Under the pieces are notes generated by a model. It was not told where the DNA came from. It was given only the letters and a program-made list of their open reading frames with translations, and made no database searches. Both the position numbers and the translations under genes were made by a program. Source: Polyangiaceae bacterium (GTDB lineage: Bacteria > Myxococcota_A > Polyangia > Polyangiales > Polyangiaceae). Taken from it: DNA of 37,154 bases. The stretch is from assembly GCA_022842465.1 (NCBI GenBank), contig JALHPN010000076.1, positions 1 to 37,154 of the forward strand, in the 5' to 3' direction. Within the stretch, counting starts at the first letter, position 1. Each line of letters starts with the position of its first letter. Positions 3,887-31,730 of this stretch are shown here, piece by piece.

Positions 3887-3993
3887 CGGCGGGACCCGTC
3901 AGCATGGGCCAGGCCCAGCTCGCGTTGCCGGGCGTCGCGTCCGAAGCTGCCGCCGAGTGGACGTGGACCGAGGAAACGGGAGAGGAGGCCGAG

Positions 3994-4977
3994 GTGACGA
4001 GCTTCGTCCACGAGACCGTGCTGAAGGCGGAGGTCGTCGCCGCGCTCGCGCCGAAGGACGGCGTCTATGTCGACGTGACGCTCGGCGGCGGAGGTCACAC
4101 CGAGGCGATCCTCGAGGCCCACCCTGCCGCGCGCGTGATCGGCCTCGACCGCGACGAGAACGCCCTCGAGGCGGCTCGCGGTCGCCTCGTGCGCTTCGGC
4201 GATCGCCTCACCCTCGTCCGCACGTCCTTCGGGCGGGTCGCGGACGTGCTCGCCACGCTCGGCGTCACGCACGTCGCGGGGCTCTGCGCCGACCTCGGCG
4301 TGAGCTCCCCGCAGCTCGACGAGGCCGGCCGCGGCATGAGCTTCCGTCGCGAGGGGCCCATCGACATGCGGATGGACCAGTCGTCCGGCGAGACCGCGCT
4401 CGATCTCATCGAGCGCCTCGGCGACGACGAGCTCGCCGACGTGCTCTTCAAGTACGGAGAGGAGCGCCGGTCGCGTCGCATCGCGCGGAGCGTGAAGCGC
4501 GCGCTCGCCGACGGTCAGCTCCTCACGACGCTCGACCTGCGTCGCGCGATCGTCCGCGCCGTCGGGCCGGTGCGCGTCGGCGGCGTCGACCCCGCGACGC
4601 GCACGTTCCAGGCGCTCCGCATCGTCGTGAACCGCGAGCTCGAGGAGCTGGAGGAGCTCCTCGCCGCGCTTCCCGCCGTCCTCGCTCCGCGCGGCGTCGC
4701 GGCGATCATCAGCTTCCACTCGCTCGAGGACCGCCTCGTGAAGCGCGCGTTCGGCGATCGCACCGTGTGGTCGCCGCTCTCGAAGAAGCCCGTCGTCGCC
4801 GCCGACGAGGAGAGCAACACGAACCCGCGCGCGCGGAGCGCGAAGCTCCGCTCGGCCGCCCGCTGTACGGCAGAGGAGCAGCGCGGCTACTACCGGCGCG
4901 ATCGCGACCCGGCGCCGGAAGTCGACTCCGAGCCGGAGCTCGGCGAGGGCGACGCCGAGAGCGAAGGCGAGCCGTGA
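3994..4977 (+). CDS. rsmH: 16S rRNA (cytosine-1402-N4)-methyltransferase RsmH
   Basis: RsmH (MraW) methylates N4 of C1402 in 16S rRNA using S-adenosylmethionine. The SAM-binding glycine motif VDVTLGGGGHTEAIL, the acidic LDRDENAL strand, DLGVSSPQLDEAGRGMSF, and the C-terminal IISFHSLEDRLVKRAF are all present. The GTG at 3994 is chosen because a perfect AGGAGG lies 5 bases upstream and translation then begins at the family-typical FVHETVL; this gives 327 residues. In-frame ATG 3904 or GTG 3883 (the latter overlapping the mraZ stop as GTGA) would add 30-37 residues of Ala/Glu-rich sequence, and I cannot exclude them. The C terminus has an acidic tail. Confidence 0.93.
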   Translation: MTSFVHETVLKAEVVAALAPKDGVYVDVTLGGGGHTEAILEAHPAARVIGLDRDENALEAARGRLVRFGDRLTLVRTSFGRVADVLATLGVTHVAGLCADLGVSSPQLDEAGRGMSFRREGPIDMRMDQSSGETALDLIERLGDDELADVLFKYGEERRSRRIARSVKRALADGQLLTTLDLRRAIVRAVGPVRVGGVDPATRTFQALRIVVNRELEELEELLAALPAVLAPRGVAAIISFHSLEDRLVKRAFGDRTVWSPLSKKPVVAADEESNTNPRARSAKLRSAARCTAEEQRGYYRRDRDPAPEVDSEPELGEGDAESEGEP

Positions 4978-17752: not shown

Positions 17753-20700
17753 TCAGCTCGTCGCGACGCGCGGCGCGCTCTCTAGGATGCGCTCCACGCG
17801 CGAGACGAGGTCGGCGTTCGAGAACGGCTTCTGGAGGAACATCGCTCCCTGCACCTGCCCCGCGTCGGCCGTCGGGAGCGTCTCGGGGGAGAACCCCGAC
17901 ACGAAGAGGACCTTCGGAGGCTTGTCGAGCTCGGCCTTCCAGCGGCGGTCGAGCTCGGGTCCGGTCGCCCCGGGCATGAGCACGTCGAGGATGACGAGCG
18001 CGATCTGCTGCGCGCGCTCCCGGACGATCACGGTCGCCTCCTCCGACCCGCTCGCGACGATGACCTCGTAGCCCTGCCGGCGGAGCATGCGCTGGAGGGA
18101 CGAGCGGACGAGCGGGTCGTCGTCGACGACGAGGATGAACTCGCCCGCGGCCTGGCGCGCGACCCGCGGCGCAGGCGTTCGTTCGACGATCGTGCTCGCC
18201 GGCTGCGTCTGCACGGCCTGGTCGACGGGGAAGTAGAGGGAGAACGTCGTCCCCGACCCCGGCGTGCTCGTCACCTCGATGTGGCCGCCCGAGCGCTTGA
18301 TGAAGGTGTAGACCATCGTGAGGCCCAGGCCTGTCCCGGCGCCCGTCGGCTTCGTCGAGAAGAACGGGTCGAAGATGCGCTGGAGCACCTCGCGGGACAT
18401 GCCCTCCCCGCTGTCCGTCACGTCGATCGCCACGTAGATCCCAGCGGCCGGAGCTCCGCGCCGGACGGCTTCCGGCCCGAGCTCCACTTCGCGGGTGCGG
18501 AGCGTGAGCTTGCCGCGCTTCTTCATCGCGTCTCGCGCGTTCGTCGCGAGGTTCACGAGCGCCTGCTCGAGCGCCGGAGGATCGGAGAGCACGGCCGGAA
18601 GCTCGTCCCCGAGCAGCGTCTCGACCTGCACACGCTCGCCGACGATGCGCTTGATCATCGGCACGAGGCCCGTGAGCACCTGCTTCGTGTCCACGCGCTC
18701 GAGGGGGAGCGGCCTGTGCCGCGAGAACGAGAGGAGGCGCTTCGTCAGATCCGCGGCGCGCGTCGCGGCGTCGCGGATGACCCCGAGCTCTTCGGCGAGG
18801 AGCGGATCGTCGGACGGAAGGTCGCCGAGCGCCTCGACCGAGCCGAGGATCGCCGCGAGCATGTTGTTGAAGTCGTGGGCGATGCCGCCCGCGAGCTGCC
18901 CGACGGCCTCCATGCGCTGCGCCTGGAGGAGCGAAGCCTGGAGCTGCTCGCGCTCCTCGAGGAGGCGCGCGAGCTCGAGCGCGACCGGGACCTGTCCCGC
19001 GAGCCCGCTGAGCACGGCGCGATCGGTGCCGTCCGTGGCGTCGTCGTCGCCGAGCTCCACGCCGAGCGCGCCGACGATGCGATCGAAGAGGTGCAGCGGC
19101 GTGACGATCGTACGGCCGCGAAGGACCGGCGTCTTGGCGCCGCTCTCGACCGGCATCTCGGAGCGACGCGCGCTGTCTAGGAGCTCGCGGTCCTCCTCGG
19201 ACAGCTCGAACGGCGCGCCCCCTGCGCTCACGCCGACGAGGATCTCGCCGATCCGCGCGTCGGGCTCGTAGAGGAGGAAGCAGCGCTCGGCGTGGACGAC
19301 GCGGAGGATCTCCTCGGCGATGAGGGCCGCCTGCTCCGGGACGCTCGCGTCGCGCCGAGGGCCGTGCGCCAGGCTGACGAGGCTCCTGAGCTGGCCGCGC
19401 GACTCGTTCGAGGAGCGCTTCTGGGAGGCCTCGGACGTCGCGGCGAGAGGCGTCAGGCCGAGCTCCTCCGCGATGCGCCGGGCGCGCGGCCGGGCGCCCT
19501 GCTCGAGCGCGATGGCCTCTGCGATGCGGGCCTGATCGCGCGCCGCGCTCGTCGCGCCCCGTGCCGCCAGCGCGTGGGCGCGGGTGCGGGCGACGGCGTA
19601 GAGGACGGCGGGGGCGTCCGCGTCCTGCGCGAGTCGCTCGGCGCGTGCGAGGCGCTTCTCGGCGTCGCGGTGTCGTCCCTCGAGCCACGCGAGGTGACCC
19701 TCTGCGGCGGCGACGTGCGCGAGGATCGGGGCGTGCTTCGAGGTCTTCCGGAGGTCGTCGATCGCGACGCGGAGAGGGCCCGCGAAGGCGGCGCGTCGTT
19801 CGGCGGGTACGGCGAGGCTCTGGTGGACCCGCGCGTCGACGACCGCCATGTAGAACTCGGCGAGCATGGGGTGGGCCCGCCGCGGGTCGATCCGCTCGCC
19901 TTCGAACTCGCGCATGAGCATCTCGAGCTCGTTGCCGATCTCGCCGCGCTCGACGAGATAACGGGCCTGCGGCCCCCACGTGAGGGTGCGGATCCACCCC
20001 TTCGCGAAGTCGGCGGGTCGGAGCTGGAAGAGCTGCGCCGAGAGCGCCGTGTTCTCGGCCTCGTCGAGGCCGAGCGCGGCGAGGCTCGCCCGCATGCGGA
20101 GGAGGACTAGGGGTGTGATGCCGTCCGCACGCTGGCGCCGCCGGACGCGGTCGTAGGCCAAGGTCGCGCAGGCGAGGGAGCTCCGCGCGTGGCCGCGAAC
20201 GGTCTCGATGAAGTCCGCGGTCAGCGCGTTGATGCAGTACTCCGAGTGCTCGAGCCAGAGGCCGTGCTGATCGACGCACGCGCGGATCCGAGCGAGGCTT
20301 CCGCCCCAGTCCCCCGCGAACAGCGTTGCGAGCGCCCGGGCCTGCGCGCAGAACGCGACGATGCTCGGATCGCCCAACCGCGCGGCGACGGCTTCGGCCT
20401 CGTCGGCGACCCGTCGACCGGCGTCGCCGCGCCCTATCGCGGCGTAGACCAAGCCAAGGGTCGCCTTGGCGCGCGCGAGCGCGGTGGACTCCCCGAGTGG
20501 TCGGCTCACGCCGATCGCGCGCACGGTGCTCTGGACCAGGCGCGCCGGCCGCGCGTACTCGCTTCCGAGACGTGCGTTCTGGTAGTGGAGCTGGCAGAGG
20601 AGCTCGATGTCCGCGGTCGGGAGCGTGCGCCCCTGCGGGAGGGGGAGCTCGAGCCGCGCGAGCGCCCGCGCCGTGTCGAACGCGGAGCCCACGCTCTCGA

Positions 20701-23098
20701 CCGGCATCCGCTCGCCGAGGAGCTCGAAGGCGCGCCCGAGCGAGATCCACGCGAGCTCGGGCTCGCTCCGCGCCTGATCGACCCATGCGAGCCGGCCGAG
20801 GAGGCGCGCGCGCTCGCGGGCGGCCGTGACGACGCGGAGGGCTTCCTCGAACGCGGCGCGCGCCGCGTCGAGGTCCCCGAGGCGCAAGTTGGCCTCCCCG
20901 AGCCCGGCGTGGAAGCGCTCGTCGAGCGCGACGCCGCTCGCTGCGGCAGATACCTTCGCGAGGAGGAGGAACTGGAGCGCGCTCTCGTTGGCGCCTCGTG
21001 AGAGCGAGGCGTCTGCTGCGGCGCGCTGCGCCCAGTAGGCGCGTGCGGGCGTGTTCGCGAGGCGACCGCTCGCGAAGTGCAGCGCGGTCGAGCAGAGGGA
21101 CTCGAAGTCGGGGCGCCCGAGCTCGTCGAGCACCTCCGCGAGCCGCTGGTGGAGGTCTCGGCGCGCGTCCTCGTCGAGCCCGTCCACGAGGGCTTCGCCG
21201 ACGCTGTGGTGGACGAAGCGGGGTCGGCCCGCCGCCGAGAGGTCCACGAGGCGGGCCCGGCGCGCATCGGCGAGGGCGTAGCCGACGTCCTCGACGGTGA
21301 GGCCGAAGACGCGCGCGAGGACCGCCTCGTCCCAGGTGTGGTCGTGGACGGCGGCGGCCTCCATCACGCGCCGCGTCGCGGGCGGGACGTCCTCGAGCCT
21401 TCGCCTCACGAGCGGGGTGACGCCACGCGGGAGCGCGATCTTGGCCGCGCGCTCCTCGTCGAACACCCACCCGCCCCCGCGTGGCCGGAGCGCCCCCGCG
21501 TCCTGGTAGGCCTCGAGCACCTCGAGGACGCCGAGGGGGGTCGCCTCCGCGAGGGCGTCGACCCGCTCGGCGAGGAGCGCGGGGGGCTCGACGCCGAGGT
21601 GGTTCGTGAGGATCTCGCGGACCGCCTTCGGGGTGAGGCCGGGGACGTCGAGCCGCGACGCGCGCGCGCCGGCTGCCGCGACGACGGCGTCGTAGGTGAT
21701 CTCGTGCGCGTCCGGCCGCGCGCCGAGCACGAGCGTCAGCGGAAGCCTCGCGATCTGGTCGGCGAGCGCGATGAGCACGTGGCGGCTCAGCGGGTCGATC
21801 CAGTGGACGTCGTCGATCGCGAGGAGCATCGGCGCCCGGAGGCGAACGAGCGCCGCGAGGAGCTCCGCGGTCGCCTCGGTGAACGAGTCCGTCGTCGCGT
21901 CGTGGCGCGCGTCCGCGGCGCCGAGGAGGGCGGCCAGGGCGGGCGCCGCGAGCGAGACGAAGGGGAGGAGCTCCGGGCCGACGGCCGCGCGGAGCGCCTT
22001 CGCGAGCGCGACGTCGTCGCCGTCCATCTCGGCGCGCATGTCGGCGATCAACGCGTCGCAGAGACGGCGCACGAGGGCTAGGGGCGCGTCCCCCTTGTTG
22101 CACGCGACCTGGCTCGCGAAGCCGAGCCTCGGTCGGCGCGCCGCCGCGACGGCGGCGGCGAGGAGCCTCGTCTTCCCGGAGCCTCGATCGCCGACGACGC
22201 AGAGCAGCGACCCGCCGCGCTTCTCGACGTCACGCGTCTCGCGGAGGATGCGCTCGAGCTCGCGCATGCGTCCGGGGAGCGCGAACGTCTTGCGATGGAT
22301 GTGCTGGTAGCGTCCGGCTCGGGAGGACGGGCCGGCCCCCGAGCCGTCCCGCAGCGGGAGGAGCGCGTCGACGACATCGGACGCGGTCCGCGGCCGGCCC
22401 TCGGGAGCCTCGGCGACGAGGGAGACGAGGAGGCGCGTCAGCGCCGCCGACGCGCGGCCTTCGAGCGCCTTCGCGACGTCGGCCGCGGACCGCTCCGCGG
22501 GGACCTTCCCCGTGAGGCACTCGACGAGCACGAGGCCGAGCGCGTAGAGGTCGGCCCTCCCGTCGAGTCGGCTCGGGGCGCGTCGCTGCTCCGGCGCCGC
22601 GTAGAGCGGCGTCCCGGCCGTGGACGGCTCGCGTCCGATGCGCTCGAGCCCCATCGCGAAGCCGAAGTCGACGAGGCGGGCCCGCCCCCCGGCCTCGAGC
22701 ATGATGTTCCGCGGCTTCACGTCCCGATGGACGAGGCCGACGGCGTGCACGGCCGCGAGGGCGGCGGCGAGCTGGAGCCCCAGCTCGACGGTCTCCGCTT
22801 CCGGGAGCGAGCCGCGCGCGAGGCGCGTCGCGAGCGGCTCGCCGTCCACGAGCTCCATCGCGAGGTACGGCAGATCGTTCGCGTGCCCCACCTCGAGCAC
22901 GCGGGGGAGGCCCGGGTGGCGGACCCGCGCGAGGGCGACGGCCTCGCGGTAGACCCACCGTGTCCACCGCCCGCCGACGGACGGGATCTTGACGGCGCAC
23001 GGAGCGCCGTCCAGCACGCCGCGGTAGACGACGGAGCTCGCGCCGCGACCGAGCTCGGCGTCGAGCGTGACGCCCGGGATCCACACGGCAGCGGCCAC
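17753..23098 (-). CDS. Giant hybrid: Ser/Thr kinase - AAA ATPase - helical repeats - GAF - histidine kinase - receiver
   Basis: This is a 1781-residue signalling protein with domains in order. The Ser/Thr kinase (about 8-250) has glycine loop GRGASSV, K37, HRDVKPRN (124-131), DFG (144-146) and APE (168-170). The AAA/STAND ATPase (about 275-560) has Walker A GDRGSGKT (303-310) and Walker B LLAIDDVHW (D429, D430). A long helical TPR-like region spans about 570-1215 and a GAF domain about 1235-1385. The HisKA domain has phospho-acceptor H1408 (GGIAHDFNN). The HATPase domain includes N1520, DSGEGM and GTGLGL, and the receiver domain (about 1653-1777) has D1705 and K1757. All catalytic residues seen are intact, and no membrane segment is seen. 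GTG 23098 has a stop two codons upstream; GTG 23086, with GAGGG nearby, is an alternative. Its ligand and output are unknown. Confidence 0.93.
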   Translation of the reverse strand: MAAAVWIPGVTLDAELGRGASSVVYRGVLDGAPCAVKIPSVGGRWTRWVYREAVALARVRHPGLPRVLEVGHANDLPYLAMELVDGEPLATRLARGSLPEAETVELGLQLAAALAAVHAVGLVHRDVKPRNIMLEAGGRARLVDFGFAMGLERIGREPSTAGTPLYAAPEQRRAPSRLDGRADLYALGLVLVECLTGKVPAERSAADVAKALEGRASAALTRLLVSLVAEAPEGRPRTASDVVDALLPLRDGSGAGPSSRAGRYQHIHRKTFALPGRMRELERILRETRDVEKRGGSLLCVVGDRGSGKTRLLAAAVAAARRPRLGFASQVACNKGDAPLALVRRLCDALIADMRAEMDGDDVALAKALRAAVGPELLPFVSLAAPALAALLGAADARHDATTDSFTEATAELLAALVRLRAPMLLAIDDVHWIDPLSRHVLIALADQIARLPLTLVLGARPDAHEITYDAVVAAAGARASRLDVPGLTPKAVREILTNHLGVEPPALLAERVDALAEATPLGVLEVLEAYQDAGALRPRGGGWVFDEERAAKIALPRGVTPLVRRRLEDVPPATRRVMEAAAVHDHTWDEAVLARVFGLTVEDVGYALADARRARLVDLSAAGRPRFVHHSVGEALVDGLDEDARRDLHQRLAEVLDELGRPDFESLCSTALHFASGRLANTPARAYWAQRAAADASLSRGANESALQFLLLAKVSAAASGVALDERFHAGLGEANLRLGDLDAARAAFEEALRVVTAARERARLLGRLAWVDQARSEPELAWISLGRAFELLGERMPVESVGSAFDTARALARLELPLPQGRTLPTADIELLCQLHYQNARLGSEYARPARLVQSTVRAIGVSRPLGESTALARAKATLGLVYAAIGRGDAGRRVADEAEAVAARLGDPSIVAFCAQARALATLFAGDWGGSLARIRACVDQHGLWLEHSEYCINALTADFIETVRGHARSSLACATLAYDRVRRRQRADGITPLVLLRMRASLAALGLDEAENTALSAQLFQLRPADFAKGWIRTLTWGPQARYLVERGEIGNELEMLMREFEGERIDPRRAHPMLAEFYMAVVDARVHQSLAVPAERRAAFAGPLRVAIDDLRKTSKHAPILAHVAAAEGHLAWLEGRHRDAEKRLARAERLAQDADAPAVLYAVARTRAHALAARGATSAARDQARIAEAIALEQGARPRARRIAEELGLTPLAATSEASQKRSSNESRGQLRSLVSLAHGPRRDASVPEQAALIAEEILRVVHAERCFLLYEPDARIGEILVGVSAGGAPFELSEEDRELLDSARRSEMPVESGAKTPVLRGRTIVTPLHLFDRIVGALGVELGDDDATDGTDRAVLSGLAGQVPVALELARLLEEREQLQASLLQAQRMEAVGQLAGGIAHDFNNMLAAILGSVEALGDLPSDDPLLAEELGVIRDAATRAADLTKRLLSFSRHRPLPLERVDTKQVLTGLVPMIKRIVGERVQVETLLGDELPAVLSDPPALEQALVNLATNARDAMKKRGKLTLRTREVELGPEAVRRGAPAAGIYVAIDVTDSGEGMSREVLQRIFDPFFSTKPTGAGTGLGLTMVYTFIKRSGGHIEVTSTPGSGTTFSLYFPVDQAVQTQPASTIVERTPAPRVARQAAGEFILVVDDDPLVRSSLQRMLRRQGYEVIVASGSEEATVIVRERAQQIALVILDVLMPGATGPELDRRWKAELDKPPKVLFVSGFSPETLPTADAGQVQGAMFLQKPFSNADLVSRVERILESAPRVATS

Positions 23099-23198: not shown

Positions 23199-24164
23199 TC
23201 ACGCGATGGGATGCACCCGAAGCGGCAGCGGCAGCGCTTCGACCCAGGGCGGTGATCCGAACACGAGCGGAACCGCGCTGTCGCAGCGCGCCCGGACGAC
23301 GTGCATCGGGGCGGCCCAGGCAGGCGTGATGTCCTCGAACGTCACGGGGGCGTCCGGTCCCGCGAGCGCGAGAGCCTTCGCCAGCGCCCCCCGGAAGGGC
23401 AGGTGGCCGCCGTCGAGCCAGGCCTCGAGCGCCGCGTGGCGCGAGCGGTGCTGGTAGTACTCGAGATGGTGGAGGGGAGACGGGCCGACGGCGGGAGCCG
23501 CGGCGGGGAGGTCCTCACCCCAGAGAAAGGCCGCGTTCTGTACGGCTTCGCCGAGCGCGCTCGCGAGCGCATCGGTCTCCGTCGGGCGCGCGGCGAAGCC
23601 CATCGCGAGCGGGAGGTCGTCCTTCCGCGGGAACGCGAAGACACCCGCACCGACGACCCCGCACGCGGCGCGCGACGCCCCGTCGTCGCGGAAGGCGTAG
23701 GCTCGGACGTCCCAGCCGTCGACGCCGCGGAACGCCGTCTCCCTCACGTCGAGCGAGATGCGCTCCGGGCGGATGTCGCCGAACCACGCCTTGAGGACGA
23801 GATGCCGTTCGCCGAGCTCCCACTGCGCGCGCGCGCGGGCCTCCTCGAGCGAGTCGTGGAGCGCGACCCCGTTCGAGCGGGCGTAACGGAACGCCGGGTC
23901 CTGCGCGGCCGCGGTTCCGCGACCCTCGGCCTCCAGCGTCGCCACGCGCTCGAGGAGCTCGAAGAGGGCGCGCGCGTGGGGCGGTTCGCCGACCTGGGCG
24001 GCGGAGCCCGTCACCTCGAGCCCTCCGGGCCCGGCGACCGCGAGGCCGACGCGGCCGACGACCGTCTCGCCCAGCGACACGGTGTCCGCGAACGTCTGCG
24101 GCGCCGACCAGCCCTCAGGAAGGCGTGGCGTGGGCAGCGATGCGGCGGGCGGAGGGAGCGACAT
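23199..24164 (-). CDS. Compact YcaO-domain protein, putative RiPP-modifying ATPase
   Basis: The 321 residues show the YcaO pattern: an acidic helix ARALFELLERVATLEAEG (64-81), the diagnostic SNGVALHDSLEEAR followed by ELGERH (97-121), ALASALGEAVQNAAF (199-213), and a C terminus ending in VHPIA, like the Pro-rich HP-type ends of YcaO enzymes. YcaO proteins use ATP to activate peptide amide carbonyls, giving azolines, thioamides or amidines. There is no fused partner or leader-binding domain, so it would be a stand-alone type. It overlaps the 3' end of the diiron-enzyme gene by 50 bp, and its own Shine-Dalgarno is poor, suggesting coupled translation. Substrate is inferred to be the nine-residue peptide upstream. 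Confidence 0.75.
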   Translation of the reverse strand: MSLPPPAASLPTPRLPEGWSAPQTFADTVSLGETVVGRVGLAVAGPGGLEVTGSAAQVGEPPHARALFELLERVATLEAEGRGTAAAQDPAFRYARSNGVALHDSLEEARARAQWELGERHLVLKAWFGDIRPERISLDVRETAFRGVDGWDVRAYAFRDDGASRAACGVVGAGVFAFPRKDDLPLAMGFAARPTETDALASALGEAVQNAAFLWGEDLPAAAPAVGPSPLHHLEYYQHRSRHAALEAWLDGGHLPFRGALAKALALAGPDAPVTFEDITPAWAAPMHVVRARCDSAVPLVFGSPPWVEALPLPLRVHPIA

Positions 24165-24828
24165 GGCTGGTACCCATCGGGGTGTTGACGAGCTCTTCGC
24201 AGAACCGGTCGAACTGCGCGATGCTCCCTTCGAGCACGCGCCGCAGGGCGGGCAGCTTCTCGGGTGCCGCGACGAGGTCGTCGATCTTGTCGAGCGCCTC
24301 CTGCACGTGCGTCTTGTCGAGCTCGGCGTGCTTCGCGATGACGGTCATCGCGGAGCGCGGGATGCCGCAGCGCTCTTCGAGCACGTCGAGCCAGTCGGGC
24401 CCGACGAGCACGATGAGGTACTCCGCGAACATGATGTAGGCGAGATACAGCGTCGGATCCTCGTCGATGACGCTCTCGATGTACTCGAGCATGCCGCGCA
24501 TGCTCGGGAGCACGTCGGTGCGTCCGTTCTTCGCGCGCTGCGAGACCTTCGCGAGGTCCTCGACGGCCCAGGCTTCGTGGCCGTCCTCCTCACGGATGCG
24601 CTCGTCGTAGTGCGCCGCGAGCGCGTAGTCCTTCCGGATCGTGGCTGCCTCGCGCGCCCGCGCCAGGTGGAGCGGCGTATGGGCGACGAGGGCGCGTACG
24701 TTCGCCAGGTAGAGCGTGACGTGCTCCGCCGTCATCGTTCCTTTCGCCGCGCTCGTGAAGAGTGCGTTCCTTTCCTTCGACGAGGCCGCGTAGGTCTCGA
24801 TGCGTGCGCGAAGCGCGTCTCCGATCAT
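24115..24828 (-). CDS. Haem-oxygenase-like diiron (HDO-type) enzyme
   Basis: This is a 237-residue all-helical protein. It carries ligands typical of iron-containing haem-oxygenase-fold oxidases: EDGHE (E81, H84) followed by a helix ending in ED (90-91), E136 in the FAEYLIVLVG helix, and HAELDKTH (H167, D171, H174). This HxxxDxxH plus ExxH arrangement marks enzymes that use O2 and two irons to oxidise amino acids or acyl chains, rather than true haem oxygenases. The ATG at 24828 has GGAG 8 bases upstream. It lies between the nine-residue ORF (with hairpin and heptamer repeats in its leader) and YcaO, with which it overlaps. A role in oxidising the modified peptide is inference. Confidence 0.72.
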   Translation of the reverse strand: MIGDALRARIETYAASSKERNALFTSAAKGTMTAEHVTLYLANVRALVAHTPLHLARAREAATIRKDYALAAHYDERIREEDGHEAWAVEDLAKVSQRAKNGRTDVLPSMRGMLEYIESVIDEDPTLYLAYIMFAEYLIVLVGPDWLDVLEERCGIPRSAMTVIAKHAELDKTHVQEALDKIDDLVAAPEKLPALRRVLEGSIAQFDRFCEELVNTPMGTSHVAPSARRIAAHATPS

Positions 24829-24863
24829 GATGCTGACTCCGATGGAAGGTGGGGAGGAGGGAC

Positions 24864-24919
24864 GAGAAGCGAGAAGCGAGAAGCGAGAAGCGAGAAGCGA
24901 GAAGCGAGAAGCGAGAAGC
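24864..24919. repeat. Eight perfect tandem copies of GAGAAGC
   Basis: Eight identical 7-bp units run without interruption from 24864 to 24919 (GCTTCTC on the transcribed minus strand). They occupy the untranslated leader between the nine-residue ORF and the diiron-enzyme gene, starting 36 bp upstream of its start codon. A perfect heptamer array of this kind is prone to slipped-strand copy-number change. Here that would alter leader length or structure, not a reading frame. Confidence 0.95.
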
Positions 24920-24930
24920 GCAGGAACAGC

Positions 24931-24960
24931 GGCGTGACCTCGTCGTCACGAGGTCACGCC
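24931..24960 (-). promoter_or_regulatory. Perfect 12-bp hairpin between nine-residue ORF and enzyme genes
   Basis: GGCGTGACCTCG and its exact reverse complement flank a 6-base loop. The stem is strong, but neither strand has a T-run after it, so it is more likely a processing, stabilising or partly terminating element than a classic intrinsic terminator. It lies 26 bp after the stop of the nine-codon ORF, and would favour more transcript for the peptide than for the downstream enzymes. A weaker hairpin (GATCC-GAAA-GGATC, 24975-24988) overlaps the peptide stop codon. Confidence 0.7.
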
Positions 24961-24986
24961 GGCGTCCTTGGTCCGATCCGAAAGGA

Positions 24987-25016
24987 TCAGAAGCAGCCGA
25001 GGGCGAACTTCTTCAT
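24987..25016 (-). CDS. Nine-residue ORF MKKFALGCF, candidate RiPP precursor
   Basis: ATG AAG AAG TTC GCC CTC GGC TGC TTC TGA encodes MKKFALGCF. A perfect AAGGAGG (25022-25028) lies 5 bases upstream, the best ribosome-binding site in this block. The ATG overlaps the stop of the GNAT gene (ATGA), so translation is probably coupled. A dibasic N terminus followed by a hydrophobic core ending Gly-Cys-Phe leaves one Cys as an obvious YcaO/oxidase target. The precedent for so short a precursor gene is mccA of microcin C (seven codons). Alternatives are a regulatory leader peptide or translation of no consequence. Readthrough of the TGA would add only about ten residues. Confidence 0.6.
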   Translation of the reverse strand: MKKFALGCF

Positions 25017-25654
25017 GACAGCCTCCTTGAGGGTTGGGGGTTGACGAACGACATCGAAGAGAACTGACGGTCGAAGACCGCGCGCGCTTCGGGGACGAGG
25101 AACTTGGTGAGGCGGAGGAGGACGCCGAACCGCTCGGAGGCGACCGTCGACGTCACGAGGTAGCCCTGGCCGGTGAGCATCTTCACCATGCGGAGGTTTC
25201 CAGGCAGGCATTCCCCTTCGAGGCGCGCGACGCCGGCAGCGCGGAGGGGAGCATCGGTGAGCTCGAGCACGCGCGTCGCGATCCTCCGCTCCTGCATCTC
25301 GGGCAGCAGCGCGATCGTGCGCCAGTAGTAGGTGCTCCAGTCGACGGGATGGCCCATCATCACGCCGACGATGCGCGCTCCGTCGCGGAACACGAGCACG
25401 TCCATCTCGTCGCAGAAGCGACGTTTGGCATCGGTCATGGGCTCCGCGAGAAAGCGTGATTGATTGTCGTTATTGTGTCCGAAGATGGAGGGGTACTCTT
25501 TCGTCATGAACGGAAGAGCTTCGGCGAAGCTTTCGGCATTCACGGTCACCCCGTCGACCGTCAGGATAGGCCACGACAAGCCCCAGATTCGGGCCGAGAA
25601 AGAGCTCTTCGGCGAACGTCGTGAGAGCTCCGAATTCGTGTCTGTCGTCGCCAC
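25013..25654 (-). CDS. GNAT-family acetyltransferase-like protein
   Basis: This 213-residue product has a GNAT-like C-terminal half: a beta strand VLVFRDGARIVGVMMGHPV, then TIALLPEMQERRIATRVLE corresponding to acetyl-CoA-binding motif A, a helix, and a NLRMVKMLTGQGYLV segment resembling the usual motif-B N..a...y...Gf. The GTG at 25654 is chosen because AAGAGG lies just upstream; the frame stays open to a TTG at 25702, but that start would include the inverted repeat at 25676-25702. Acceptor is unknown; modification of the peptide encoded by the overlapping ORF, or self-protection as by the acetyltransferase MccE, are possibilities by analogy. It is the first gene of the putative leftward peptide operon. 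Confidence 0.7.
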   Translation of the reverse strand: MATTDTNSELSRRSPKSSFSARIWGLSWPILTVDGVTVNAESFAEALPFMTKEYPSIFGHNNDNQSRFLAEPMTDAKRRFCDEMDVLVFRDGARIVGVMMGHPVDWSTYYWRTIALLPEMQERRIATRVLELTDAPLRAAGVARLEGECLPGNLRMVKMLTGQGYLVTSTVASERFGVLLRLTKFLVPEARAVFDRQFSSMSFVNPQPSRRLS

Positions 25655-25675
25655 GGAAACCCTCTTACCGCGCGG

Positions 25676-25702
25676 TTGATCGGGCGGGCAATGCCCAATC
25701 AA
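25676..25702. promoter_or_regulatory. Inverted repeat just upstream of the GNAT gene
   Basis: TTGATCGGGC and GCCCAATCAA form a 10-bp inverted repeat with one mismatch (a G-T wobble if RNA) and a 7-base spacer, 22 bp before the GTG at 25654. It could be an operator for a dimeric repressor or a 5'-UTR hairpin. The DNA just beyond (25700-25716) is unusually AT-rich for the window and could hold the promoter, but I find no convincing -35/-10 pair. Confidence 0.5.
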
Positions 25703-25792
25703 TCACAATTAATTTGCCTCATGGCCGCGCTCGGTGTTAGGCGCCCGAAATCTGGGCGAAAACTCCTGTCGCTCGCGGGCGGAGAAAGCGAC

Positions 25793-25821
25793 AAAAAAAC
25801 GACATGCGTGCAATGTGCACG
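25793..25821 (-). terminator. Candidate terminator downstream of rsmE
   Basis: Read on the minus strand, a perfect 6-bp stem CGTGCA-CAT-TGCACG (25821-25807) is followed after 7 bases by seven T residues (25799-25793). It lies about 90 bp after the rsmE stop and before the GNAT operon. The gap between stem and T-run is longer than ideal. Confidence 0.4.
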
Positions 25822-29508: not shown

Positions 29509-29538
29509 GAGGCGTGCTCCATGTGGGGGGCACGCCTC
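29509..29538 (+). terminator. Strong hairpin after ftsZ
   Basis: GAGGCGTGC pairs exactly with GCACGCCTC; with a T-G wobble and two more C-G pairs the stem reaches 12 bp around a small loop (ATGT plus G). It starts 40 bp after the ftsZ stop and lies between convergent genes, so it may end transcription from both sides. Only a weak T-stretch (CATTTCGG) follows. Confidence 0.65.
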
Positions 29539-29555
29539 GCGTCATTTCGGCGTCC

Positions 29556-30089
29556 TCACGCGAAGAGCTTCGCCATCGCAGCTGGCGCGACGCGCTCGAG
29601 CAGGATCCGGGTGTCGTCGATGCGACGGGCGCCGAGCATCCGAGTCCTCGCGAACAGCGCGGCGCCGACGAGCGCGACGAGCCCGACAAGGGCGATCGTG
29701 GCATCCTCGAGAATCTTCACGCCGAGGACCCCACCGACGAGGAGCACCACCGCGCCGACGATCGCGTTCCGCGCCGTCGTCCATCGCGCGTCGCACGGGG
29801 CGCAGAGCGGGACGTCGAGGGCGGCCCGCTTCGTCGTCACGAGAAACGCGACGAGCCCGGGCAACGCGCAGAGGACGAGCAACACGCGCGCCCAGGCCGG
29901 CGTCCACTGGAAGCTCGCGCGTCGCTTGACGAGGTCGTCGACGGCGCCGCATCGGAGGCAGACGTCGGGGATCGTCGCGCCGAACGGAACGACGAGGACA
30001 TCGCCCTCGCGCTGGAGAGGTATCCCGGCCGCGCCGTGGAGCGGACCACGCCTCTGGACGGGCGGTGCGTACGGGTTCTCGGACATCAT
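29556..30089 (-). CDS. Small membrane protein with zinc-ribbon-like Cys pairs
   Basis: This is a 177-residue product starting MMSENPYAPP, an N terminus common in small bacterial membrane proteins of unknown role. Two Cys pairs, CLRC (C44, C47) and CAPC (C96, C99), flank the first hydrophobic segment (WARVLLVLCALPGLVAFLV) and could together bind one zinc on the cytoplasmic face. Two further membrane helices follow (IVGAVVLLVGGVLGV and TIALVGLVALVGAALFA). Either of two adjacent ATGs (30089, 30086) may start it; no good Shine-Dalgarno is visible. It faces the ftsZ terminator and is divergent from the repeat-protein gene at 30231. No function is assigned. Confidence 0.7.
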   Translation of the reverse strand: MMSENPYAPPVQRRGPLHGAAGIPLQREGDVLVVPFGATIPDVCLRCGAVDDLVKRRASFQWTPAWARVLLVLCALPGLVAFLVTTKRAALDVPLCAPCDARWTTARNAIVGAVVLLVGGVLGVKILEDATIALVGLVALVGAALFARTRMLGARRIDDTRILLERVAPAAMAKLFA

Positions 30090-30093
30090 GACA

Positions 30094-30117
30094 GCACCGT
30101 GTACGCAGCGACGGTGC
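30094..30117. repeat. Inverted repeat between divergent genes
   Basis: GCACCGT and ACGGTGC, a perfect 7-bp inverted repeat with a 10-base spacer, sit 5 bp upstream of the zinc-ribbon protein start and about 110 bp upstream of the repeat-protein start. It could be an operator in the shared intergenic region; nothing else in 30090-30230 stands out. Confidence 0.35.
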
Positions 30118-30230
30118 ACGTGCTTCCTGCGCACGAGAAGCCGCAGCCGCGACGACTTCCGCGACTTGCCGGTCCAGAGACGATTTTCGTTCACGAACCG
30201 TGCGGGACCGGGGACGTAGGGGACACTTAC

Positions 30231-31730
30231 GTGATTGCCCTTCGCTTCCTCCGCTTCCTGGTCGCGCTCGCGACGCTGGCCCTGGTCCGGCCTGCGCTCG
30301 GGGCGCCCGATGTGCCCCCCTCCGGTCCGATGCGGCTCGTCGTCTTCGGCGAGCTGCCCCGGGAGGTGCTCCGCGAGCGCCTCGCGAAGGCCCTCGACCG
30401 TCCTGTGGTGCTCGCCGCGGAGCGGGCTCCGGCGGATGCTGCCCCGCAGATCACCGTCACCTGGCGCGGGGACGAGCTCGCCGTCGCGTACGACGAGCCG
30501 GGGAGAGGGACCGTCAGCCGCGTCGTCCCCTCGCGTCCGAAGCCCGAAGACGCGGTCGACGATGCCGTCCTGCTCTCCACCTCGCTCGTGCGGAACGAGG
30601 CGGACGAGCTCCTCGGGCAGAAGCCGACGGCCCCGCCACCGGTCGACGAGCCGATCGACCGACCCGCTCCCGTGGCAGCTCCTCCTCCTGCACCAAAGGA
30701 GCGCGCGAAGGACGACGACGAGGTGCCAGCCGTCGTCTCGCTCGTCCATCCGCTCGCGAGCAACGCCCAGAAGCCGTACGCGCGCACCCGCTTCGGGCTG
30801 AACCTCGTCTACGGGCGGGCGGGGGAGCTCGATCACGGCCTCCAGCTCGGGATCGTGAACGTCGTCACCGGCGGCGATCGCGCCTCGGGTCGCATGTCCG
30901 GCGTCCAGCTCGCGCCGTTCTTCGGCGTCAACGTCGCGGGCGGCGTCGCGGAGGGGCTCCAGCTCGCCCACCTCGCGAACGTCGCGGGCGGCGGCCTCGC
31001 GGGCGCGCAGCTCTCCTTGCTCGGCAACGTGAGCGGCAAGGAGACGGACGGCGCCCAGATCGCGATGGGCCTCAACGTCTCGGGCTCCGCGTTGCGCGGG
31101 ACGCAGCTCGCGGCGGTGAACGTCGCGGGGGACGTCACGGGCCTCCAGCTCGGCTTCGTGAACGTCGCGAAGCGCGTGAACGGCGCGACGCTAGGCCTCG
31201 TCAACGTCGCGGACGACGTCGACGGCGTCCCGATCGGCCTCATCAGCGTGACGAAGAGCGGCGGGATCCACCCCGTGGTGTGGAGCGGCACCTCGACCTA
31301 CGCGAACGTCGGTCTGAAGTTCGCGACCCGCTACACGTACACGATGATCGCGGGGCACTGGGCGCGCGAGAGTGAACGCACGTACGACGAGGAGAACGCT
31401 CGGACGGTCACCCTCGAACCGCGCGACTTCCTCGGGGGAGGCTTCTTCCTCGGCGGCCACCTCCCGATCGACCGCGCGTTCGTGGACTTCGACCTGAGCG
31501 CCGCGCCTCACTACGCGACCCGATCCTCGGCGCGCTCGGACAACCCCCAGCTCCGCTACCACGAGGTGCTCGTCGACGCGCGCGCGCGGATCATGGGCGG
31601 CGTGACGCTCCTCCCTCACCTCAGCCTCTTCGTCGGCGCGTCCGCGCTCCTCCGGGTCCGCATCGTGGACGAAGGCAGAGACGGCCTCTACCGGGTCGTG
31701 CCCGAGCTCTTCGGAGGGGTGCAATTCTGA
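30231..31730 (+). CDS. Outer-surface beta-repeat protein of LA_2272 type
   Basis: This 499-residue exported protein has a signal peptide (VIALRFLRFLVALATLALVRPALGA, likely cleaved near residue 25). An N-terminal domain of about 100 residues and a Pro-rich acidic linker (about 131-165) are followed by a stretch of eight or so repeats (about 203-340) of the form G.QLG.VNVA (for example GLQLGFVNVAKRVNG, GATLGLVNVADDVDG). Such repeats are characteristic of the LA_2272 surface-repeat family. The C-terminal part contains alternating aromatic and glycine strands ending in F (GVQF), suggesting an outer-membrane beta barrel. The GTG start at 30231 has AGGGG upstream. The ECF sigma gene begins 26 bp downstream, on the same strand. 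Confidence 0.72.
   Translation: MIALRFLRFLVALATLALVRPALGAPDVPPSGPMRLVVFGELPREVLRERLAKALDRPVVLAAERAPADAAPQITVTWRGDELAVAYDEPGRGTVSRVVPSRPKPEDAVDDAVLLSTSLVRNEADELLGQKPTAPPPVDEPIDRPAPVAAPPPAPKERAKDDDEVPAVVSLVHPLASNAQKPYARTRFGLNLVYGRAGELDHGLQLGIVNVVTGGDRASGRMSGVQLAPFFGVNVAGGVAEGLQLAHLANVAGGGLAGAQLSLLGNVSGKETDGAQIAMGLNVSGSALRGTQLAAVNVAGDVTGLQLGFVNVAKRVNGATLGLVNVADDVDGVPIGLISVTKSGGIHPVVWSGTSTYANVGLKFATRYTYTMIAGHWARESERTYDEENARTVTLEPRDFLGGGFFLGGHLPIDRAFVDFDLSAAPHYATRSSARSDNPQLRYHEVLVDARARIMGGVTLLPHLSLFVGASALLRVRIVDEGRDGLYRVVPELFGGVQF

Follow-up and report, generated by a model that had tools for sequence, protein, structure and literature searches.

The locus and its short gene

The window, a stretch of 37,154 nucleotides from a Polyangiaceae bacterium (contig JALHPN010000076.1 of assembly GCA_022842465.1, genome G000 in our set), carries on its minus strand a nine-codon open reading frame (ORF), MKKFALGCF, placed between a gene for a GNAT acetyltransferase and genes for a heme-oxygenase (HO)-fold diiron oxidase (HDO), a stand-alone YcaO protein and a giant hybrid kinase. 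Homologous ORFs recur in 29 loci. We consider it likely that these genes form a minimal cluster for a ribosomally synthesized and post-translationally modified peptide (RiPP), in which the nonapeptide is the complete precursor, is modified by YcaO at a Cys, Ser or Thr residue and oxidized, and yields a product read by the companion kinase. The features of the locus are as follows.

25013..25654, minus strand: GNAT acetyltransferase gene directly 5' of the peptide gene (GTG start assumed; Acetyltransf_1, 3.4e-6)
25022..25028, minus strand: Shine-Dalgarno sequence AAGGAGG, 5 bases 5' of the ATG, identified from the sequence
24987..25016, minus strand: nonapeptide gene (MKKFALGCF plus stop), proposed RiPP precursor, with 29 homologous ORFs
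24921..24970, minus strand: hairpin (inverted repeat) 3' of the peptide gene, proposed partial terminator
24863..24920, no strand assigned: 7-bp tandem repeat, 8.3 identical copies (Tandem Repeats Finder), in the hairpin-HDO interval, part of the leader
24115..24828, minus strand: HDO gene (Haem_oxygenas_2, 1.2e-6; 28.9 bits, exactly the cut-off)
23199..24164, minus strand: stand-alone YcaO gene, 321 residues, overlapping the HDO end (Pfam YcaO, PF02624, 4.1e-14)
17753..23098, minus strand: giant hybrid kinase gene, 1781 residues (Pfam), proposed product reader, with an orthologue in 16 of the 29 loci

The ORF starts with the ATG at 25016, which overlaps the GNAT stop as ATGA, and its stop ends at 24987. 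The sequence-only reading that preceded this analysis had described this ORF, its Shine-Dalgarno sequence and spacing, the overlap with GNAT and the hairpin, HDO and YcaO that follow on one strand, and had proposed a minimal RiPP-like cluster. Each element was found again in the sequence, with coordinates and Pfam matches in agreement, and the recurrence of the short ORF in 29 loci supports the proposal. That reading had also named loss of the ORF from relatives that keep YcaO and HDO as the observation that would speak against it, and the opposite was found. Its gene set of GNAT, HDO and YcaO is confirmed, but it had overlooked the companion sensor kinase and the exchange of HDO for a radical SAM enzyme described below.

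The hairpin arms (24921-24943 and 24948-24970) are 83% complementary. The adjoining repeat consists of eight perfect copies of CGAGAAG, which were not seen in the other contiguous-locus gap sequences shown, and is possibly a length-variable leader. Rfam gave no match in 24800-25800, and a known leader RNA was dropped as a candidate.

Recurrence and conservation of the peptide gene

Among 58 related genomes, GNAT and YcaO each match the same 11; HDO matches 15 at E ≤ 0.001, of which 10 are strong (E ≤ 8.9e-27) and lie within those 11. A YcaO-profile scan of a genome collection with one peptide pattern returned 15 loci from Labilithrix, Polyangiaceae, other myxobacterial metagenome-assembled genomes (MAGs), Bdellovibrionales and others, several of them contigs already in the genome set and counted once. 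Listing of short ORFs in these loci and in split contigs gave ten further peptide ORFs; those of G384 and G325 were added later. In the phylum of the Bdellovibrionales locus (191 genomes) a GNAT-profile search found nine strong matches (E ≤ 4.6e-37), all nine accompanied by the ORF, and 11 weaker GNAT genomes, all without it. A third phylum (58 genomes) contributed G403 only. The 29 ORFs, of 9-10 codons, thus come from genomes of the Polyangiaceae/Labilithrix and Bdellovibrionota types and, in one case, from a third group.

The ORF was also sought directly with a DNA pattern consisting of a Shine-Dalgarno sequence, MKK(x)FAxx, a codon start of the C/S/T type, one further codon and a stop, together with a reversed-pattern control. 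Over 377 genomes of the phylum, 7 genomes matched, compared with 0 for the control. Six of the 7 were among the 8 strong YcaO-family genomes and 1 among the other 369 (Fisher p 5e-11), where YcaO was scored on 5 first-look candidates per genome and the cut for 'strong' was placed in the gap from E 1.5e-85 to 1.3e-8 after this had been seen. The two strong YcaO genomes without a pattern match (G032 and G325) contain the ORF on inspection, and the 7 kb around the odd pattern match (G071) contain no member of these GNAT, HDO and YcaO families. The recurrence of the short ORF exceeds chance.

The gene order is largely constant. GNAT lies immediately upstream of the peptide ORF in 28 of the 29 loci; 14 of these have an ATGA overlap, and in the rest the distance does not exceed 128 nt. 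YcaO is encoded on the strand of the ORF, no more than 2 kb from it, in 26 loci; in G325 it is upstream of the ORF. The G016 locus reaches a contig end, and its HDO and YcaO are at the end of another contig. In nine contiguous GNAT-HDO loci, for which all gap ORFs were listed with no motif requirement, every gap contains a single ORF of this type, 9-10 codons long: MKKFALGCF, MKKFARATF (twice), MKKFATGTF, MKKFARATL, (V)KKFARTSL, (V)KKKFAHMSF, MKKRFALNCL and (V)KKRFALITH. Eight of the nine have a GGAG-type Shine-Dalgarno sequence, the exception being G032 (AAAGG).

The 29 peptides conform to the consensus M-[KR]-[KR]-(K/R/Q)-[FY]-A-x-x-[CST]-x, with 25 ATG and 4 GTG start codons. Positions 2 and 3 are K or R, and 17 peptides have an additional K, R or Q. 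The residue before Ala is aromatic (F 26, Y 3), and Ala itself is kept in all 29 through all four codons (GCA, GCG, GCC and GCT). The penultimate residue is always Cys (10), Thr (10) or Ser (9), encoded by nine different codons; 28 of the 29 ORFs came from listings unfiltered at that position (by script, or by eye for G325), that of G384 alone having come via pattern and regular expression, and the regular expression behind the final table itself demanded C/S/T. The last residue varies (F 15, L 7, I 2 and one each of H, A, Y, M and T). Because Ala is retained through all four codons and C/S/T through nine, selection acts on the peptide rather than the RNA. The penultimate site has changed at least 13 times on the GNAT tree and at least 12 times on the YcaO tree, always inside C/S/T, and the residue before it shows 19 changes on these trees and is free. 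The conservation of an encoded precursor, its translation predicted from sequence, together with modifying enzymes across 29 ORFs is the pattern characteristic of RiPPs.

The succession of tiny ORF, hairpin and enzyme genes also recalls an attenuator, in which the ORF would be a regulatory leader peptide whose translation, with the hairpin, tunes the enzyme genes while YcaO acts elsewhere; in 21 of 28 loci the 70 nt 3' of the ORF stop form a strong fold (z < -2). This explanation appears improbable, since the ORF is kept where YcaO lies upstream (G325) or on another contig (G044 and G019), the last codon is highly variable, no single regulated codon is present, the folds contain one main hairpin with none significant in 7 of the 28 loci, and no Rfam leader family was found at the locus.

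Neither plasmid nor viral carriage was retained as a candidate. YcaO had no match in a plasmid collection (tblastn), and plasmid carriage was dropped. One orphan YcaO relative was observed at 3962-4957 of a 196-kb IMG/VR contig classed as viral (L082). That record has no GNAT, and the part of it that was examined lacks the peptide ORF, so this relative was not counted.

YcaO and its proposed exchangeable oxidase partner

Membership of the window protein in the YcaO superfamily is supported by the Pfam match, by fold matches and by conserved motif residues. Residues E69/E72/R73, S97/G99 and E116/E119/R120, which we take to be ATP-binding, are invariant in the YcaO alignment. The structural model is nearest to McbD, a heterocycle-forming enzyme, and aligns through to the McbD C-terminus, and the profile is nearest to TruD, MusD and LynD; the cut-off of NCBIfam TIGR03604, for azoline-forming cyclodehydratases of the SagD/McbD type, is not reached (35.6 bits vs 219.25). 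Cys, Ser and Thr are the residue set used by YcaO cyclodehydratases, which fits the conservation of the penultimate site: a possible azoline-forming substrate residue is present there in all 29 peptides. The penultimate Cys had been proposed as the natural site of modification; the position gains support, but the residue is not confined to Cys.

A YcaO protein may alternatively act with a TfuA partner to form a thioamide, as in thiovarsolin, whose cluster combines a heme-oxygenase-like protein with YcaO and TfuA according to the available part of the source (PMC6511847). TfuA (PF07812) is absent, however, from 19 of the 27 cluster genomes, including G000, and was not recognized as a conserved neighbour among the neighbours listed; thioamidation, moreover, does not need a conserved Cys, Ser or Thr. 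TfuA is present in 8 of the 27; thioamidation with TfuA was rejected as a general explanation and is very improbable here. TfuA and HDO-like matches were observed ∼1-2.5 kb apart at G044:C590:9289-11089 and G019:C492:2361-5186, perhaps marking separate thiovarsolin-like clusters. In the same two genomes, at L064 (G044:C610) and L066 (G019:C75), YcaO is gone from the cluster and lies on another contig, away from the peptide ORF.

The HO fold of HDO is supported by structure comparison. In 15 sequences the ligand set H84, H167, H174, E81 (or E80), E136 and D171 is invariant, corresponding to the predicted three-histidine, three-carboxylate site of the HDO superfamily. HDO, which had been taken as a member of the cluster, is present in 22 of the 29 loci but is not constant. 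A gene for a B12-binding radical SAM enzyme takes its place in five (G402, G403, G407, G408 and G534; Pfam matches on four), and no locus has both, the absence of radical SAM from HDO loci being judged on the available flanks, short in some loci, and not genome-wide. The HDO profile has no match anywhere in the five radical-SAM-type genomes. Neither gene adjoins the ORF in G016, at its contig end, or in G044. Counting G016 as HDO and giving G044 its own label, the trees require 4 and 5 label changes, corresponding to at least three exchanges. One pathway step thus looks to be served by either an O2-dependent diiron or a radical SAM enzyme, for which AcsF and BchE, an O2-dependent diiron and a radical SAM enzyme, provide a parallel case. 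In L179 (G534) two GNAT copies flank the radical SAM gene, with the peptide ORF only behind the weaker copy.

Companion kinases, the proposed pathway and known systems

Of the 29 loci, 27 have a sensor kinase or the corresponding regulator next to the cluster (giant-kinase orthologue in 16, histidine kinase in 10, response regulator alone in 1). These 27 show the arrangement known from peptide quorum sensing, in which a sensor kinase is linked to a peptide gene and to the gene for its processing enzyme. The window kinase contains Ser/Thr kinase, AAA_16, TPR-like, weak GAF, HisKA, HATPase_c and receiver domains (Pfam). Its orthologues lie downstream on the same strand, as contig-end fragments in G032, G384 and JAICQO, and 12 relatives, including that on a G016 contig, align over almost the entire window protein. 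No full-length paralogue was found in G000 among 150 scored of 540 candidates, the best other match (240.7 bits) being to the histidine-kinase end. The G016 and G405 loci stop at contig edges, and matching contigs carry the kinase (L023 and L081). In ten loci, nine of Bdellovibrionota type and G403, a histidine kinase faces the cluster, with a response regulator near in nine; G325 has a response regulator and no kinase beside the cluster. Four of these histidine kinases were checked and have 4-5 transmembrane-like segments; four giant kinases have 0-1. In a PADLOC comparison covering 25 of 31 families, the giant kinase matches PD-T4-6 and other models, mostly via its Ser/Thr kinase domain, and GNAT, HDO and YcaO have no match at 1e-5; anti-phage defence was dropped as a candidate.

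On the RiPP reading, the nonapeptide would be the whole precursor, its basic N-terminus (M-K-K, in many peptides extended by another K or R) probably serving as a very short recognition tag. YcaO would use ATP to activate the backbone amide preceding the penultimate Cys, Ser or Thr, and side-chain closure would give a thiazoline or (methyl)oxazoline. An oxidation of this small molecule would come next, catalysed by HDO or, depending on the lineage, by the B12-binding radical SAM enzyme; its most likely site is either the azoline or the residue at the C-terminus, where the free carboxylate could bind iron. GNAT may acetylate the peptide or product, and the hairpin may keep the peptide message in excess over the enzyme message. 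The companion kinase would most likely be the sensor of the product; in Polyangiaceae-type loci this is the giant Ser/Thr-His hybrid, which is cytoplasmic, and in Bdellovibrionota-type loci it is a histidine kinase with several transmembrane segments, accompanied by a response regulator. We advance more tentatively, at somewhat below even likelihood, that the product is a new signal between cells or of cell state: a peptide of nine or ten residues that bears an azoline or azole, is encoded in 30-33 bp, is made by YcaO and a swappable oxidase (HDO or B12-binding radical SAM) and is read by a dedicated, phylum-specific kinase in predator-related lineages.

Two other products can be considered. 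An antibiotic or metallophore-like product, with GNAT for self-protection and the kinase controlling production only, is favoured by the acetyltransferase MccE of microcin C and by the predators found in both main groups, as far as the available sources indicate. Microcin C also has a seven-residue precursor and a terminator favouring the mccA message, according to the available part of the source (PMC6495379). Against these stand a precursor N-terminus that varies little, a kinase or regulator more constant than HDO and the failure to recognize an exporter as a conserved neighbour among the neighbours listed, and we regard such a product as rather unlikely. The C-terminal residues might instead give rise to a redox cofactor or a chemical sensor inside the cell, much as PqqA gives rise to PQQ, with the kinase reporting its state. 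This would suit the resemblance of the oxidase exchange to AcsF/BchE, the 0-1 transmembrane-like segments of the giant kinases and the HO fold shared with PqqC (1otw). A nine-residue precursor with a variable last residue would be unusual for a cofactor, however, and neither a dehydrogenase nor a user protein dedicated to it was recognized among the conserved neighbours, so that we assign this a low probability.

Several observations weigh against the RiPP reading. Its support is genomic, with transcript, translation and product so far predicted, and the kinase may merely regulate the operon. The estimated contamination of G000 is 6%, the named relatives are all MAGs, and the GNAT and YcaO trees conflict in places. 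The YcaO model aligns to known YcaOs with TM-scores of just 0.36-0.57 over the query. Among the neighbours listed, neither a protease nor an exporter was recognized as conserved, nor was an E1-like/RRE partner or partner cyclodehydratase, for which no targeted profile search was made. Individual loci also depart from the arrangement: the GNAT frame of G037 runs past or through the peptide ORF in another frame, GNAT of G403 is on a different contig without the ORF there, the ORF of G534 follows the weaker and not the strong GNAT copy, YcaO of G019 and G044 is on a separate contig, the peptide gene of G044 adjoins neither oxidase, the HDO ORF of G384 is short (159 residues, E 3e-13), and a significant hairpin is lacking in 7 of 28 loci.

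If the RiPP reading is correct, the cluster would represent a RiPP class with genes below gene-caller size, and others may hide beside orphan YcaO or HDO genes. It would offer a nine-residue, chemically synthesizable substrate for studying YcaO nearly without a leader, and a pathway in which an O2-dependent diiron enzyme is naturally swapped for a B12-binding radical SAM enzyme. It would also supply a candidate ligand for giant Ser/Thr kinase (STK)/STAND/histidine hybrid kinases, whose signals are, to our knowledge, mostly unknown.

Elsewhere in the window, three 42-bp repeats at 31119-31249 lie inside an ORF (29514-31730) and encode a repeated protein stretch.

Parts of the system have precedents. 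McbD, LynD and TruD, which act with an E1-like/RRE partner (domain or subunit), share with the window protein the YcaO fold, the ATP-site residues and the Cys/Ser/Thr substrate residue; here, by contrast, a 321-residue stand-alone YcaO accompanies a nine-residue peptide. The microcin C cluster family shares an acetyltransferase with the present cluster but uses C-terminal adenylation by the ThiF-like MccB and is without YcaO, HDO or radical SAM; no MccB-type adenylating enzyme was recognized among the conserved neighbours listed, and no search was aimed at it. The tiny, length-conserved precursor (MccA, 7 residues) and the hairpin or terminator 3' of it, favouring the mccA message, are common to both, as described in the available part of the source (PMC6495379). 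Shorter still is the biarylitide precursor BytA, of 5 residues from an 18-bp gene (PMC13417212; PMC12951456). From what these sources make available, biarylitide genes are likewise short enough to escape annotation, with almost no leader, but they involve a P450 cross-link between aromatic residues and another precursor motif, whereas the present peptides have 9-10 residues and YcaO with HDO; judged on the precursor, the biarylitide pairing of a P450 with a five-residue, two-aromatic peptide is not present here, P450 not having been searched for.

The closest enzymatic parallel is the thiovarsolin cluster (varA, varY, varT and varO), in which YcaO, TfuA and a heme-oxygenase-like oxidase act on a ribosomal peptide and the products are N-acetylated by an endogenous enzyme, comparable to a cluster with GNAT. 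It differs in its longer, repeat-containing precursor and its need for TfuA, and no dedicated kinase is reported in the available part of the source (PMC6511847). The sequence-only reading had known of no pathway combining these enzymes on a nonapeptide; the pairing of YcaO with a heme-oxygenase-like protein is already known, as are tiny precursors, but the full combination was not found in the literature. In that literature, mostly open-access with few subscription papers or preprints, the precursor family, the HDO-to-radical-SAM exchange and the kinase link were not found described. A new RiPP class is probable, the kinase being its most surprising part. UndA, CtCADD and HrmI share the HO fold and the conserved three-histidine, three-carboxylate set with the present HDO, and known members of their superfamily act mostly on amino or fatty acids, as the available part of the source indicates (PMC13108848); the present HDO differs as a specialized subfamily tied to a peptide cluster.

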